From positions 1 through 64,000 of the forward strand of contig JACZXH010000004.1 of NCBI GenBank assembly GCA_022571715.1: a stretch of 64,000 nt of DNA, given 5' to 3'. Both the position numbers and the translations under genes were made by a program. Shown here one piece after another: positions 9,205-15,233 of this stretch. The stretch's first letter is position 1. Each line of letters starts with the position of its first letter. Source of the DNA: Bacteroidota bacterium. GTDB lineage: Bacteria; Bacteroidota; Bacteroidia; Cytophagales; Cyclobacteriaceae. The notes under the pieces are model-generated. The model searched no databases and was not told where the DNA came from. It saw only the letters and a program-made list of their open reading frames with translations.

Positions 9205-10938
9205 TCAACCAAATATGTGCCGTTTTGCTGCCCTTGATAAAAATCTGATCTTTTCTTTAAGCGGAAACCTTCCCAGATTGGTCTTTATCACCCCCTTTGT
9301 AAGTCTAGTCTTTTTTGAGTAATCAATATTCACATTTACCAGTACCGGGCTGTCTTCCGATTTTGTGAGGGCTTCGGATATGCCTGTTTCAATTGCTTCA
9401 TCATTTAAGATATTGACGTATTCTACACCTGTTGCCGTCGCAATTGCCTCCAGATTTATATTACCCAATACCGAACAGGTTTTGCGGTTCATAGGTATTT
9501 TCTGGAACTGAGAAATCTGCCCCAGTTCACCGTCACTAAATACGAAGACGATTATATTCGCACCATAGGATTTTGCTGTTATGAGTTCCAGGCCGGTCAT
9601 CAGAAAAGCCCCGTCTCCCACAATGGCAACCACTTTATTATCCGGATTGCCCAGTTGAACACCAATCGATGCGGGCACACAATACCCCATACAATTAAAA
9701 TCTGTAGGTGAAATAAAATACCTGGGATGAAACACGGGAAATAATTCTGAAGCAAGAAAGGTATGTTTGCCGTCATCCACGACCATCATGGTGTCTTCAG
9801 GCACTTTGGCTCTCAAAGACTTAAAAAAATGGCCCGGCGATACTTTTTCACTATTAAACTCTTTAAGCCATTCTGAAAAATAGGCTTGTTTGTTTTTTTG
9901 AATTTCAGCATGGATTAACTCCGCATTACATATTGACTTCCAACCACTAATCTTAATTTCATTAATCAATTTCTTTAATACAATATCTGCATCTCCTGTA
10001 ATGGCAATTTTTGTTGGATAATTTTTATCAAATACTTCAGGATTTATGTCAATATGAATCAAATTTTCGGGCACTACTACGCCAAAGCTACCGGTGGCGA
10101 GCTCTCCAAATCGTACACCAATGGCTAGCATACATTCACAGGCAGCGAATGCTTTTTCAGCTGCAGGCACTGCAGATGGCCCAAACCCTACACCTGTATG
10201 CAGTGGGTGATTTTCAGGAAAACTGCTTTTTCCCTGCAATGTGGTGGAAACGGGCGCATTCAGCATATCAGCCAGTTCTTTTAATGCTTCAGTGGCATGA
10301 ACAGCCCCCCAACCTGCATAAATACATGGAATCGATGATTTCATAAGCATATCCGCTGCCTCACGGATCAGATCCTCATCGGGTTCGGGAGATGTAGCGG
10401 TAAAACTGTATAAAGGCAAATCCGGGACTTCTCCCTGAAATAGTTGTAAATCAACGGGTAATTCAATAAAAACCGGACCGGGTTCTCCCGAAACAGCGAT
10501 ATCATATGCATCATATATTGCTGGGATGATATCACGATGATGTTGTATCAGTGTATATTTTTTAACAACCGCCCTGACAAGTTTTTCCTGATCCAACTGA
10601 TGTAGCTGATATTGCTTATCCGTATCCCGCCTGATACCGCCAGAGATGATCAACATGGGTATGCCGTCAAGAAAAGCCTCCCCTATCCCGCTCATTGCGT
10701 GGGTTGTGCCGGCGGCCGGTACAATGGCGAGCGTACCTATGGAACCGGAGGTCCGTGATACCGCATCGGCCATAAAAGCCGCAGGCCCTTCGTGGGTAAC
10801 CAACACCGGCTGGATCTTCTCTGATTTGTTTAATTCATCATAAATCTCGGTATTATGCACCCCCGGAATACCAAATGTAAACCGGACGCCAATCTGCTCC
10901 AGTGCGTATCTGGCCAGATATGCTCCTGATTTTTTCAT
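9205..10938 (-). CDS. ThDP-dependent enzyme, acetolactate-synthase-like
   Basis: A 577-residue thiamine-diphosphate enzyme. The start was set at ATG 10938 (MKKSGAYLARYALEQIGVRFTFG), because the reading frame further upstream overlaps the preceding gene and is not protein-like; GGGTAAG about 6 nt upstream can serve as ribosome site. Landmarks: catalytic Glu in VTHEGPAAFMADA, the ThDP/metal motif VGDGAFLM...VFVFSDGELGQISQ, and a central domain with YAGWGAVHATEALKEL. It resembles the IlvB-like branch, but the replacement of the usual N-N-x-Y/F segment by SDGELGQ, and its pairing with an FAD dehydrogenase gene only 5 bp away, argue for a catabolic or specialised role rather than valine synthesis. 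The true reaction is unknown. Confidence 0.88.
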   Translation of the reverse strand: MKKSGAYLARYALEQIGVRFTFGIPGVHNTEIYDELNKSEKIQPVLVTHEGPAAFMADAVSRTSGSIGTLAIVPAAGTTHAMSGIGEAFLDGIPMLIISGGIRRDTDKQYQLHQLDQEKLVRAVVKKYTLIQHHRDIIPAIYDAYDIAVSGEPGPVFIELPVDLQLFQGEVPDLPLYSFTATSPEPDEDLIREAADMLMKSSIPCIYAGWGAVHATEALKELADMLNAPVSTTLQGKSSFPENHPLHTGVGFGPSAVPAAEKAFAACECMLAIGVRFGELATGSFGVVVPENLIHIDINPEVFDKNYPTKIAITGDADIVLKKLINEIKISGWKSICNAELIHAEIQKNKQAYFSEWLKEFNSEKVSPGHFFKSLRAKVPEDTMMVVDDGKHTFLASELFPVFHPRYFISPTDFNCMGYCVPASIGVQLGNPDNKVVAIVGDGAFLMTGLELITAKSYGANIIVFVFSDGELGQISQFQKIPMNRKTCSVLGNINLEAIATATGVEYVNILNDEAIETGISEALTKSEDSPVLVNVNIDYSKKTRLTKGVIKTNLGRFPLKEKIRFLSRAAKRHIFG

Positions 10939-10943
10939 GATTC

Positions 10944-12551
10944 TTACCCTTTTACAACAGCCCTCGCCGCCAGCCTGCCATTTAAGACACAACCACCAAG
11001 AAATGTACCCTCCAGCGAACGTATGCCGTGCATTCCCCCACCTCCAAAACCGGCAGCTTCGCCAATGGCATATAAGCCCGGAATATACGCAGTTTTTGTC
11101 AATACCCTGCAATCAAGATCGGTCTGGATTCCTCCAAGGCTTTTACGTGACAAAATAAATTCACGGATTGCAATTAAAGGAAGAGCATCCTTATCATATA
11201 TCTTCTGAAACCTGCAAGTACGGATCCGGTCTCCACGGTTTTGCCTTACAAGATTAATCTTACGAAGTTGTTCGTCACTGTGAAAATCACCTTTTTCGAT
11301 TTCAGCGTCGTATGCCAATATTGCCCTGGTAAACTTATCGCCATCAATGTAATTGTTGCCAGTGAGGTTATTCATTTTCAAAACTAATTTTTCAATCGTA
11401 TCGGCGACTACAAAATCAGCATTTTCACTAATGAATTCATTTACAAGAGCCTTGTTGCCGAAAAGGCTGTCTTTTAAAAATCTGAATATATCCTTGTTGC
11501 GAATCGCGGTATTATATTCTGATCCGGAAACAGCTAACTCTTTTACGGCAATTTTGATATTAAGTACCTGCCACGAATATTGCTCCTGCTGATGACATAT
11601 ACGCTCTACAAGGTACCGTGTATCGAAACCTGAAACCAACGGAGGCATAAATCGTACGCCTCTTGCATTGAACCATAGCGCCGATTTTGGTGGGATCAGG
11701 CTCAACCCGTGGTTGGGTTTCTGGGGTTTGTGGTGATGTACGCCAGCAGCATACAACCACATCTTATCCAGATGTGTCACTTCTGCTCCCAAGGCATTAT
11801 GCACTATCTCGTGCAGATCACCGGTAGCATACTGATGCGATCCGTTGAGAATAATCTCCGGAGGTGTTCCCATTTTAGCATCCCAGTTTTCTTTTACTTT
11901 TTTAATACTGCCTCCGATCCCTCCTGTTGCAATTATCACGAATTCCGAATCAATCTGGAAAGCGTTTCCATTCGTTTCATTAATGCCCGAAACTCCGTTC
12001 ACAGTACCATTCGATACTTCTATATCAGTGACTTTATGTCTGAAAAGATTTGTTATACCGGCATTTTTCTCGTGGTGAGACAATCGGTTTATCAACGTTT
12101 TGATCAGACCATATCCCGTACCCCAAACCATATGAAAACGCGGCACGGAATTTCCTGGCTGTTCAAGTCCTCGTTCCACCCAGTGTACGATCGGGAAAAA
12201 CCTAATCCCGAGTTTACGAAGCCACACATACACCTCCTCCTTACATAAATTTACATATTGTTCGGCCCATAATACCGGCCATTTGTCATTTTCCATAAAT
12301 CCGGCATAAGAATGCCAGTCTTTCAATGCAAGTTCTATGCTGTCTTTAAACCCGGAAAACTTTTGTTGAGGTGTATCTACAAAAAACATACCACCAAACG
12401 ATTCTTTGGCAAGGCCGCCAAAGCGTTCGGGTACATCGCGGTCAATGAGAATGACTTTCTTGTTATTTTCAAGCAACTCATAAGCTGCTACAATTCCAGC
12501 CAGGCCACCACCAACAACGACGATGTCGGTTTTATAAATAGTTTCTTGCAT
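10944..12551 (-). CDS. FAD-binding dehydrogenase (flavocytochrome c / ketosteroid dehydrogenase-like)
   Basis: A 535-residue flavoprotein with an N-terminal dinucleotide-binding fold, DIVVVGGGLAGIVAAYELLENNKKVILIDRD (GxGxxG near residue 14, acidic end of strand 2), and the C-terminal FAD motif YAIGEAAGFGGGGMHGIRSLEGTFLGGCVLNGR. This pattern matches the putative FAD-binding dehydrogenases related to fumarate reductase flavoprotein and 3-ketosteroid delta-dehydrogenase. ATG 12551 was preferred over an in-frame TTG two codons upstream. It is the first gene of a two-gene unit with the ThDP enzyme, 5 bp apart. Substrate unknown; a hydrogen removal or addition next to a carbonyl is the usual chemistry. 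No signal peptide, so cytoplasmic. Confidence 0.9.
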   Translation of the reverse strand: MQETIYKTDIVVVGGGLAGIVAAYELLENNKKVILIDRDVPERFGGLAKESFGGMFFVDTPQQKFSGFKDSIELALKDWHSYAGFMENDKWPVLWAEQYVNLCKEEVYVWLRKLGIRFFPIVHWVERGLEQPGNSVPRFHMVWGTGYGLIKTLINRLSHHEKNAGITNLFRHKVTDIEVSNGTVNGVSGINETNGNAFQIDSEFVIIATGGIGGSIKKVKENWDAKMGTPPEIILNGSHQYATGDLHEIVHNALGAEVTHLDKMWLYAAGVHHHKPQKPNHGLSLIPPKSALWFNARGVRFMPPLVSGFDTRYLVERICHQQEQYSWQVLNIKIAVKELAVSGSEYNTAIRNKDIFRFLKDSLFGNKALVNEFISENADFVVADTIEKLVLKMNNLTGNNYIDGDKFTRAILAYDAEIEKGDFHSDEQLRKINLVRQNRGDRIRTCRFQKIYDKDALPLIAIREFILSRKSLGGIQTDLDCRVLTKTAYIPGLYAIGEAAGFGGGGMHGIRSLEGTFLGGCVLNGRLAARAVVKG

Positions 12552-13031
12552 TTGCAATATAATATCGGAATAAATATATAATGACTTTCATAACAGCATA
12601 ATTATTTTATTTTTATTAAATGGTTTTCATTTCCAGGCAGGTCTTTTCCATCTGATAACTTGAAATAAACCAGAAACAGATATAAAATATTCTAAATAAA
12701 TAAACAAATTAATTGACCGGTTTGTTTTTTGATTCATGAAGATACATCTGATATTGTAATGCACTATGAAAAGTAATGCTATTGATCTTGTAAACCGAGA
12801 CCTTTTTATATGCAGGAGCACATGGATATGGTTACCGATTCGGTTGAAGCCGTACATGTAGAACTGAGAAAAATCAATGGCTTAAAATAACTTATGAACT
12901 CCGGAATCTCTGGTTGAGTAAGCGAAGTTCGATAAATTGTAGAACAGGAAATAATGTTTTGAATTGCCCTTAAAAGACATTATTATATATACTTGCAATA
13001 GGTTAACTATTTGTCTTGTTAATTGATTCAT
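12552..13031. other. AT-rich intergenic region, divergent promoters
   Basis: No intact gene is visible in these 480 bp between two divergently transcribed genes. A short frame at 12810-12890 on the plus strand (MQEHMDMVTDSVEAVHVELR, then six residues and stop) looks protein-like but has no upstream continuation in frame, so it may be a decayed gene end. The rest is low-complexity AT-rich sequence that presumably holds the promoters. Confidence 0.4.
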
Positions 13032-13675: not shown

Positions 13676-14941
13676 TTATCCTACCAGGAACTGGAACAAG
13701 TCCGATTTTTCATTGAGGTATTCCCCCATAAATCCGTTTTTCCTGATTCGGTCCATCAGCGGCGCGAAATCCTTCCTGGATTTTAATTCAATACCTACTA
13801 CAGCTGGTCCTTGCTCACGGTTATGCTTTTTAAAATATTCGAAATGCGTAATGTCGTCATCCGGTCCGAGAATGTCCACAACGAATTGTTTTAATGCCCC
13901 GGCACGTTGAGGAAACCGAATAATAAAATAATGTTTCAGCCCTTCATACAGCAAGGCTCTTTCCTTGATCTCCTCGAGGCGTGATATATCGTTGTTACTT
14001 CCACTTACAATGCAAATTACATTTTTTCCTTTTATTTCTTTTTCATACAAGGGTAATGCTGCCAGGCTTAAAGCTCCAGCCGGTTCAGCAACTATAGCGT
14101 CATTATTATAAAGTAAAAGCATATTGGAGCATACAAGTCCTTCCGGAACCGTGATCATGTCATCCAAATAATCCTTACAGATTTCAAAGGTGATTTCTCC
14201 GACACGTTTTACAGCAGCACCGTCAATAAAGGAGTCTATTTTCTTTAAAGTGGTCACACTTCCACCATGAATGGCTGTTTTCATTGAAGGTGCACCTTCG
14301 GGTTCAACGCCCACAATCTTTGTTTCAGGGCTTAACTCCCGGAATACCGTTATGATCCCTGAGGCAAGTCCTCCCCCACCCACAGGTACAAACAAATAAT
14401 CAACCGGTTGGTTGATATCTTCAAGAATTTCAAGCGCAACAGTACCCTGTCCTTCGATAATCTCAGGATCGTCAAATGGGTGAATAAAAGTACTATTATT
14501 GGTTTTACAATAGGTTATGGCATCATTACTGCAATCATCAAACAAGTCGCCTGTCAGGATAATATCCACATATTTTCTTCCGAATGTTTCTACCTGCCGG
14601 ATTTTTTGCCTGGGGGTAGTGGACGGCATAAATATACTCCCCTTAATTCGCAGTTTATGACACGAAAATGCTACGCCTTGGGCATGATTTCCTGCGCTGG
14701 CGCATACGACTCCATTTTTAAGTTCCGATCCGGATAGCATGCACATTTTGTTATAGGCTCCTCGTATTTTATAGGACCGTACTACCTGAAGATCCTCCCT
14801 TTTTAACCATATCTGGGCCTGCCAGGTTTCTGATAAGTTTTTGTTCTTTATCAGTGGTGTATGATTTACTATATCTCTGATGTTTTCACTGGCTTTTATG
14901 ACCCCCAAAAATGAAGGTAGCATTGAAACTGAAGTTGACAT
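13676..14941 (-). CDS. ilvA: Threonine ammonia-lyase, biosynthetic
   Basis: IlvA deaminates threonine to 2-oxobutanoate, the committed step of isoleucine synthesis, using PLP. In the 421-residue protein the PLP lysine is in LQVVRSYKIRGAYNKM (near residue 58), the phosphate-binding glycine loop is VPVGGGGLASG, and SGSNND follows near residue 320. A single ACT-like regulatory domain (HYFIIRFPQRAGALKQFVVDILGPDDDITHFEYF) occupies the C-terminus, as expected for the shorter ~400-residue form. The gene is preceded by what looks like an isoleucine-responsive attenuator (leader peptide plus terminator at 14981-15103), which independently supports the biosynthetic assignment. No ilvB/N/C/D genes are in the window. 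Confidence 0.95.
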   Translation of the reverse strand: MSTSVSMLPSFLGVIKASENIRDIVNHTPLIKNKNLSETWQAQIWLKREDLQVVRSYKIRGAYNKMCMLSGSELKNGVVCASAGNHAQGVAFSCHKLRIKGSIFMPSTTPRQKIRQVETFGRKYVDIILTGDLFDDCSNDAITYCKTNNSTFIHPFDDPEIIEGQGTVALEILEDINQPVDYLFVPVGGGGLASGIITVFRELSPETKIVGVEPEGAPSMKTAIHGGSVTTLKKIDSFIDGAAVKRVGEITFEICKDYLDDMITVPEGLVCSNMLLLYNNDAIVAEPAGALSLAALPLYEKEIKGKNVICIVSGSNNDISRLEEIKERALLYEGLKHYFIIRFPQRAGALKQFVVDILGPDDDITHFEYFKKHNREQGPAVVGIELKSRKDFAPLMDRIRKNGFMGEYLNEKSDLFQFLVG

Positions 14942-14980
14942 ATCCGATTTGTTGTTAAATAATTATAACTCCTAATATTA

Positions 14981-15013
14981 AAAAAGCCCTGCTCGTTATG
15001 AGAAGGGCTTTTT
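14981..15013 (-). terminator. Rho-independent terminator in the ilvA leader
   Basis: Read on the minus strand: AAAAAGCCCT, loop, AGGGCTTTTT with further Ts. The stem is 10 bp, and the loop can add CTC/GAG pairs. It ends only about 40 nt before the ilvA start codon and directly follows an Ile-rich leader ORF, so it is best read as an attenuator. It could also end transcription from the upstream acylase gene, whose stop lies 220 bp away. Confidence 0.85.
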
Positions 15014-15040
15014 GATTTATTATTACATTATCCTCCTCAT
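14998..15040 (-). promoter_or_regulatory. Predicted antiterminator pairing of the ilvA attenuator
   Basis: The minus-strand segment AUGAGGAGG (complement of 15032-15040) begins immediately after the leader stop codon. It can pair with CCUUCUCAU (complement of 14998-15006), which includes the 5' arm and loop of the terminator; eight Watson-Crick pairs and one G-U. A ribosome that finishes the leader would cover the first segment and allow termination; a ribosome stalled on the Ile codons would leave it free. Confidence 0.6.
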
Positions 15041-15103
15041 TCAGCATCTTTTATGCATAATGTAGATTAATGAATGAATAATAATGATATTATTGGCTTT
15101 CAT
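15041..15103 (-). CDS. Isoleucine-rich leader peptide of ilvA
   Basis: A 20-codon ORF that starts at ATG 15103 and reads MKANNIIIIHSLIYIMHKRC, then TGA. Six of 20 residues are Ile, four of them consecutive (ATC ATT ATT ATT). It lies 100 bp upstream of ilvA on the same strand, with the terminator starting 28 nt after its stop. Leader peptides rich in the pathway's end product are the sensor of ribosome-mediated attenuation. There is no strong Shine-Dalgarno (upstream sequence is CTTTTAAAAATT), which is usual in Bacteroidota. It is far too short to be an ordinary gene and is not expected to have its own function as a peptide. Confidence 0.8.
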   Translation of the reverse strand: MKANNIIIIHSLIYIMHKRC

Positions 15104-15233
15104 AATTTTTAAAAGAAAGCAAAGCTAACGATAGTGGTCCAACATTCAAATTTTATATTACTTTCATCAAAAGAATGGCATTCCAGGCCCTGAACTGTTT
15201 TACCAAACAAAAACAAATTATGCCCGATAAAAC

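Follow-up and report, generated by a model that had tools for sequence, protein, structure and literature searches.

A predicted isoleucine-responsive transcription attenuator upstream of ilvA in a Bacteroidota bacterium, and related leaders in the phylum

Known leader-peptide attenuators and the ilvA locus

Leader-peptide attenuation is a textbook mechanism, best known from the trp, his, thr and ilvGMEDA operons of Escherichia coli. A comparative study by Vitreschak and colleagues in 2004 is said to have named Bacteroidetes/Chlorobi for attenuation. In 2010, the authors of a Firmicutes case wrote that they knew of no earlier demonstration beyond Proteobacteria and Actinobacteria (PMC2965389). 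Among branched-chain amino-acid genes, ilv attenuators are described for Staphylococcus aureus, with a leucine-rich peptide (PMC5794164), and for Listeria monocytogenes (PMC5864092), and a uORF / ilvB-II motif for the ilvBNC mRNA of Corynebacterium (PMC10272879), in the portions of these reports used here. Within the Bacteroidota, small ORFs resembling leader peptides are mentioned in Bacteroides thetaiotaomicron (PMC7366714), and main-text passages on Flavobacterium psychrophilum present strong clues for leader-peptide attenuation before amino-acid biosynthesis operons, with no ilvA case among these passages (PMC9723704).

The window analyzed here (the whole 64,000-nt stretch of contig JACZXH010000004.1, from a member of the Cyclobacteriaceae) holds on its minus strand, in this order, a promoter match, a leader ORF, ATGAGGAGG, an intrinsic terminator and ilvA. 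The features are as follows:

15120-15150, minus strand: promoter match TTTG-N19-TAGCTTTG, an exact match to the Bacteroidota sigma-A consensus TTTG / TAnnTTTG
15041-15103, minus strand: leader ORF MKANNIIIIHSLIYIMHKRC, 20 codons plus TGA (from translation)
15077-15088, minus strand: four consecutive Ile codons ATC ATT ATT ATT, codons 6-9 (from the sequence)
15065-15084 (approximate), minus strand: segment 1, the part of the leader overlapping the Ile codons, predicted from the window and G001 folds to pair with segment 2 in ribosome-free RNA
15032-15040, minus strand: segment 2, the putative antiterminator strand AUGAGGAGG (ATGAGGAGG), directly 3' of the leader stop codon
14998-15006, minus strand: segment 3, CCUUCUCAU (CCTTCTCAT), in the 5' arm and loop of the terminator, predicted partner of segment 2
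14981-15013, minus strand: predicted intrinsic terminator, segments 3:4, stem AAAAAGCCCT/AGGGCTTTTT, a 10-bp stem plus T run
13676-14941, minus strand: ilvA, biosynthetic threonine ammonia-lyase with a regulatory C-terminal domain, 421 aa (NCBIfam and Pfam)

Like the E. coli attenuators, this locus has a leader ORF bearing a run of codons for the end product, and its target gene belongs to the pathway of that product. It also shares with them a 1:2 hairpin, an antiterminator strand beside the leader stop codon, and an antiterminator and an intrinsic terminator that exclude each other. Unlike them, it lies in a Bacteroidota genome, precedes a single gene outside the ilv operon and uses Ile without Val; the likeness is one of anatomy, and no sequence similarity is claimed. 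With the Corynebacterium (PMC10272879), S. aureus (PMC5794164) and Listeria (PMC5864092) systems, as the sections used here describe them, it shares a short ORF or leader peptide upstream that controls branched-chain amino-acid genes, whereas those systems belong to other phyla and control whole operons. The F. psychrophilum candidates come from the same phylum with the same proposed mechanism, and judging from these parts of the report they likely belong to the same class as the ilvE, ilvD and thrA leaders described below (PMC9723704). The original prediction had set attenuation, as established for proteobacterial ilv operons, at a single ilvA gene in a Bacteroidota genome; the single gene outside the ilv operon holds, but attenuation itself is not new to this phylum, as the passages on F. 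psychrophilum attest (PMC9723704).

We posit that a ribosome-mediated transcription attenuator makes ilvA expression depend on how much charged Ile-tRNA is available, a reading of the sequence to which we assign a probability of about 0.93. The attenuator is well supported by its sequence elements, by conservation within the genus, by partner-specific complementarity in relatives and by folds consistent with each regulatory state, and from these we infer where transcription starts, that the leader is translated, that ribosomes stall on it and that expression responds to isoleucine.

Sequence elements and predicted folding

The leader, its six Ile codons, ATGAGGAGG, the 10-bp terminator and ilvA, which the original prediction had placed on the minus strand, were all confirmed. 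The identity of the target was likewise borne out, with ilvA scoring well above the NCBIfam cut-offs for threonine ammonia-lyase (NF006390, 634 bits vs 421; TIGR02079, 630 vs 440.55) and matching PF00291 (PALP) and PF00585 (Thr_dehydrat_C) in Pfam. IlvA is the first committed enzyme of isoleucine synthesis, and the target therefore lies in the pathway of the amino acid that would be sensed. Codons for that amino acid are clustered in the predicted peptide, with Ile at codons 6-9, 13 and 15. Among the 1,459 short ORFs (10-40 codons, both strands) of the whole window, a run of four Ile is found in the leader before ilvA only, and the combination of a four-Ile short ORF with a terminator occurred in none of 10 first-order Markov copies of the window.

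Between the promoter match and the leader ATG lie 16 nt. The promoter consensus has 5 matches in the window vs 2.7 expected, and is a weak indication when taken alone. The -33 TTTG is a promoter element of Bacteroidota and is kept in the only other genome of the genus with ilvA (G001), where the -7 box reads TAGCAGTG and is not conserved. We count this against the attenuator reading, as we do the finding that no clear Shine-Dalgarno sequence was seen for the leader ORF. TAnnTTTG is reported as the sigma-A -7 box of F. psychrophilum, of the same phylum, in the passages used here (PMC9723704).

The terminator stands between the leader ORF and the structural gene, 39 nt from the ilvA ATG, and its stem consists of 10 perfect pairs followed by one mismatch and 3 inner pairs. 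The RNA from leader to terminator folds with z = -4.15 (200 shuffles), the stretch with the terminator with z = -4.20, and the G001 homolog with z = -5.24. The proposed pairing of ATGAGGAGG with the terminator segment CCTTCTCAT was supported by a computed duplex energy of -13.8 kcal/mol in the window; in G001, where one G-C becomes G-U, it is -11.6 kcal/mol. Segment 2 occupies nucleotides 1-9 after the stop codon and is predicted to pair with the 5' arm of the terminator; the antiterminator so formed excludes the terminator and could be masked by a ribosome at the stop.

Folds were computed for both species with the ribosome set at successive positions, before and after the 3' arm of the terminator is made. 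In the free RNA of both, the leader pairs with segment 2, very clearly so in G001. This 1:2 hairpin was overlooked in the original prediction, and according to the folding model it completes the classical four-segment design. With segment 4 absent, the 2:3 antiterminator is the best structure in all four states with a ribosome on codon 6, 9, 13 or 15, and it does not form in the free RNA. With a ribosome at the stop codon, 2:3 is lost and the terminator is left. The folds of both species hence agree with the earlier proposal that a stalled ribosome would free the antiterminator strand and one at the stop would mask it. Once the RNA is complete, the terminator has the lower energy and is favored over the antiterminator, which we count against the attenuator reading; antitermination would thus have to come about kinetically, as it usually does in attenuators.

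In the mechanism that we propose, transcription would begin a short way upstream of the leader ORF, which a ribosome would translate. When charged Ile-tRNA is scarce, the ribosome would stall at the Ile codons and cover segment 1, leaving segment 2 (AUGAGGAGG) free. Segment 3 (CCUUCUCAU) would then be captured by segment 2 ahead of the synthesis of segment 4, preventing the terminator from forming and allowing ilvA to be transcribed. When isoleucine is plentiful, the ribosome would reach the stop codon and cover segment 2, and the 3:4 terminator would end transcription. If the leader is not translated, segment 1 would hold segment 2, and the terminator would form as well.

Conservation in the genus and related leaders in the phylum

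Of the three genomes sampled in the genus, one is 58% complete and without ilvA, and two ilvA sequences were therefore compared. The G001 leader MSAKNIIILRSIIRIMHKGC has 20 codons and six Ile, without indels and with start and stop unchanged; ATGAGGAGG is identical, and the terminator and the upstream gene are kept. Among the nine codons that differ between the two leaders, seven alter the amino acid and the Ile count is six in both, which would be expected were the sensor codons all that counts; the peptide varies freely apart from its Ile content. The expectation that relatives keep both the Ile codons and the pairing was thus borne out in G001, and the pairing scheme is conserved phylum-wide.

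In the window's genome, ilvA lies near thrABC, with its own predicted attenuator, and ilvD-ilvB-ilvN-ilvC are found on another contig without ilvA. In this genus, ilvA no longer stands in the ilvDBNC operon. Inspection revealed no evident leader at the ilvD operon of the same genome, and no Thr/Ile leader was seen upstream of thrA in the window. Upstream of ilvD, a hairpin (AGGGACC...GGTCTCT, then TTTATTAT) is conserved in all three genomes of the genus (L079, L076, L077); it lies 12 nt from the ilvD start, and no leader peptide is evident there. Downstream of ilvA, positions 9205-12557 of the minus strand encode an FAD-binding dehydrogenase and an acetolactate-synthase-like TPP enzyme, the latter scoring below the curated acetolactate synthase cut-off.

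With a covariance model built from 14 leaders rich in Ile, Val and Leu, 141 of 291 order-level genomes had matches at E <= 0.05, many of which were weak; at the phylum level and E <= 0.005, matches were seen in 59 of 395 genomes. The fetched loci precede ilvD, ilvE, ilvB, ilvN and thrA, and ilvA itself in this genus and G087 alone. Some of the matches fetched at phylum level, a minority, resemble plain terminators with no convincing leader. A search of 67 ilvA loci with the model likewise gave clear attenuators only in this genus and G087. In many order-level relatives ilvA directly follows ilvC at the end of the operon, so that the absence of a leader before ilvA is expected there, and in many the leader precedes ilvD, the first gene of the operon.

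In the relatives, the antiterminator segment lies at or overlaps the leader stop codon, and its pairing peaks around the stop and drops upstream of it. In the MAFFT alignment the antiterminator strands of some relatives were misplaced, and covariation was therefore assessed by duplex energies and permutation rather than by column counts. Across 42 non-redundant loci, antiterminator strands form duplexes with their own terminator arms at a mean of -15.9 kcal/mol, vs -10.5 kcal/mol for swapped partners. None of 100,000 permutations was as good, a figure that is not an exact probability since the loci are related by descent. The abundance of Ile, Val and Leu among the matches is partly built into the model, whereas partner-specific pairing is not.

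Judging from the predicted peptides, the sensor codons follow the target. The two ilvA leaders of this genus contain 12 Ile, no Val and 2 Leu in 38 residues, as compared to 23% Ile, 17% Val and 12% Leu in ilvD leaders (Ile vs Val, Fisher p = 0.004, the two ilvA leaders not being independent), and the thrA leaders MYNSTIIITIIITTGRNLAEE and MTINNTTIITIITTGKYFGGK (L144, L152) carry Thr and Ile, recalling the thr leader of E. coli. Ile without Val is also seen in one ilvE leader and in two leaders before an ilvN-like gene, and the ilvA leader of G087 is mixed in its sensor codons. We consider it more likely than not that these loci represent a phylum-wide Bacteroidota class of leader-peptide attenuators, absent from Rfam 15, with sensor codons retuned to the controlled gene: Ile, Val and Leu for ilvD, Thr and Ile for thrA, and, for an ilvA separated from the ilv operon as in this genus, Ile without Val.

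At L136 and L137, the leaders (MKQAIQNNIIISIIIIRIT) are rich in Ile and lack Val, and the gene that follows is about 30% identical to ilvN, with no other recognized ilv genes following within about 1.5 kb. Several genomes carry tandem leader ORFs before ilvE, each with its own terminator (L115, L122, L129, L106, L108), which are possible double attenuators. In the tandem of G304, MRANTIIITQIITVVNT is followed by MFKYTTIITVVIITTRTG, and its MRANTIII resembles MKANNIII; an ilvA leader descended from an ilvE leader might leave such a trace, a stretch too short to decide the matter.

Alternative readings and implications

The hairpin could be the ordinary terminator of the upstream penicillin-amidase gene, which has the same orientation and stops 220 nt short of it, with the leader a chance ORF in AT-rich intergenic DNA, where Ile codons are favored. 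We regard this as very unlikely, since the only ORF of the window with a four-Ile run ends at the ilvA terminator, since G001 keeps the frame, the six Ile codons and the antiterminator strand, and since the same anatomy, with partner-specific pairing, recurs before amino-acid genes throughout the phylum. A structured 5' region ending in an intrinsic terminator would also suit a T-box or metabolite riboswitch, an RNA that senses its signal with no leader peptide. However, no Rfam family, T-box and riboswitches included, reached its gathering score in the window or at 13 related loci, and what is conserved is the reading frame, the Ile codons and where the antiterminator lies with respect to the stop codon, which is what control by a ribosome would lead one to expect; the probability that remains for an RNA sensor is slighter still.

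Just as improbable is a leader that acts mainly through translation, for example by reinitiation at ATGAGGAGG, or a terminated RNA that works in trans as a small RNA. The stop and a start codon do overlap in TGAATG, AGGAGG resembles a Shine-Dalgarno sequence, and a trans-acting trp leader peptide is described in the part of the literature used here (PMC7298713). The tiny ORF at TGAATG nevertheless differs between the two species (MRRIM vs MRRIMVK), the overlap is absent from relatives outside the genus, and the terminator stands between this ORF and ilvA.

The attenuator reading therefore makes the putative ilvA switch a well-supported further case of a known mechanism, distinguished by a separated, Ile-tuned ilvA. 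In a phylum where Shine-Dalgarno sequences are little used, it would represent a clean example of ribosome-mediated attenuation in its classical form. The coupling of transcription to translation has received little attention in Bacteroidota, and the case matters there for that reason. Sensor codons and target genes can be compared naturally across the wider set of loci, which may also serve as a starting alignment for an RNA-family entry.
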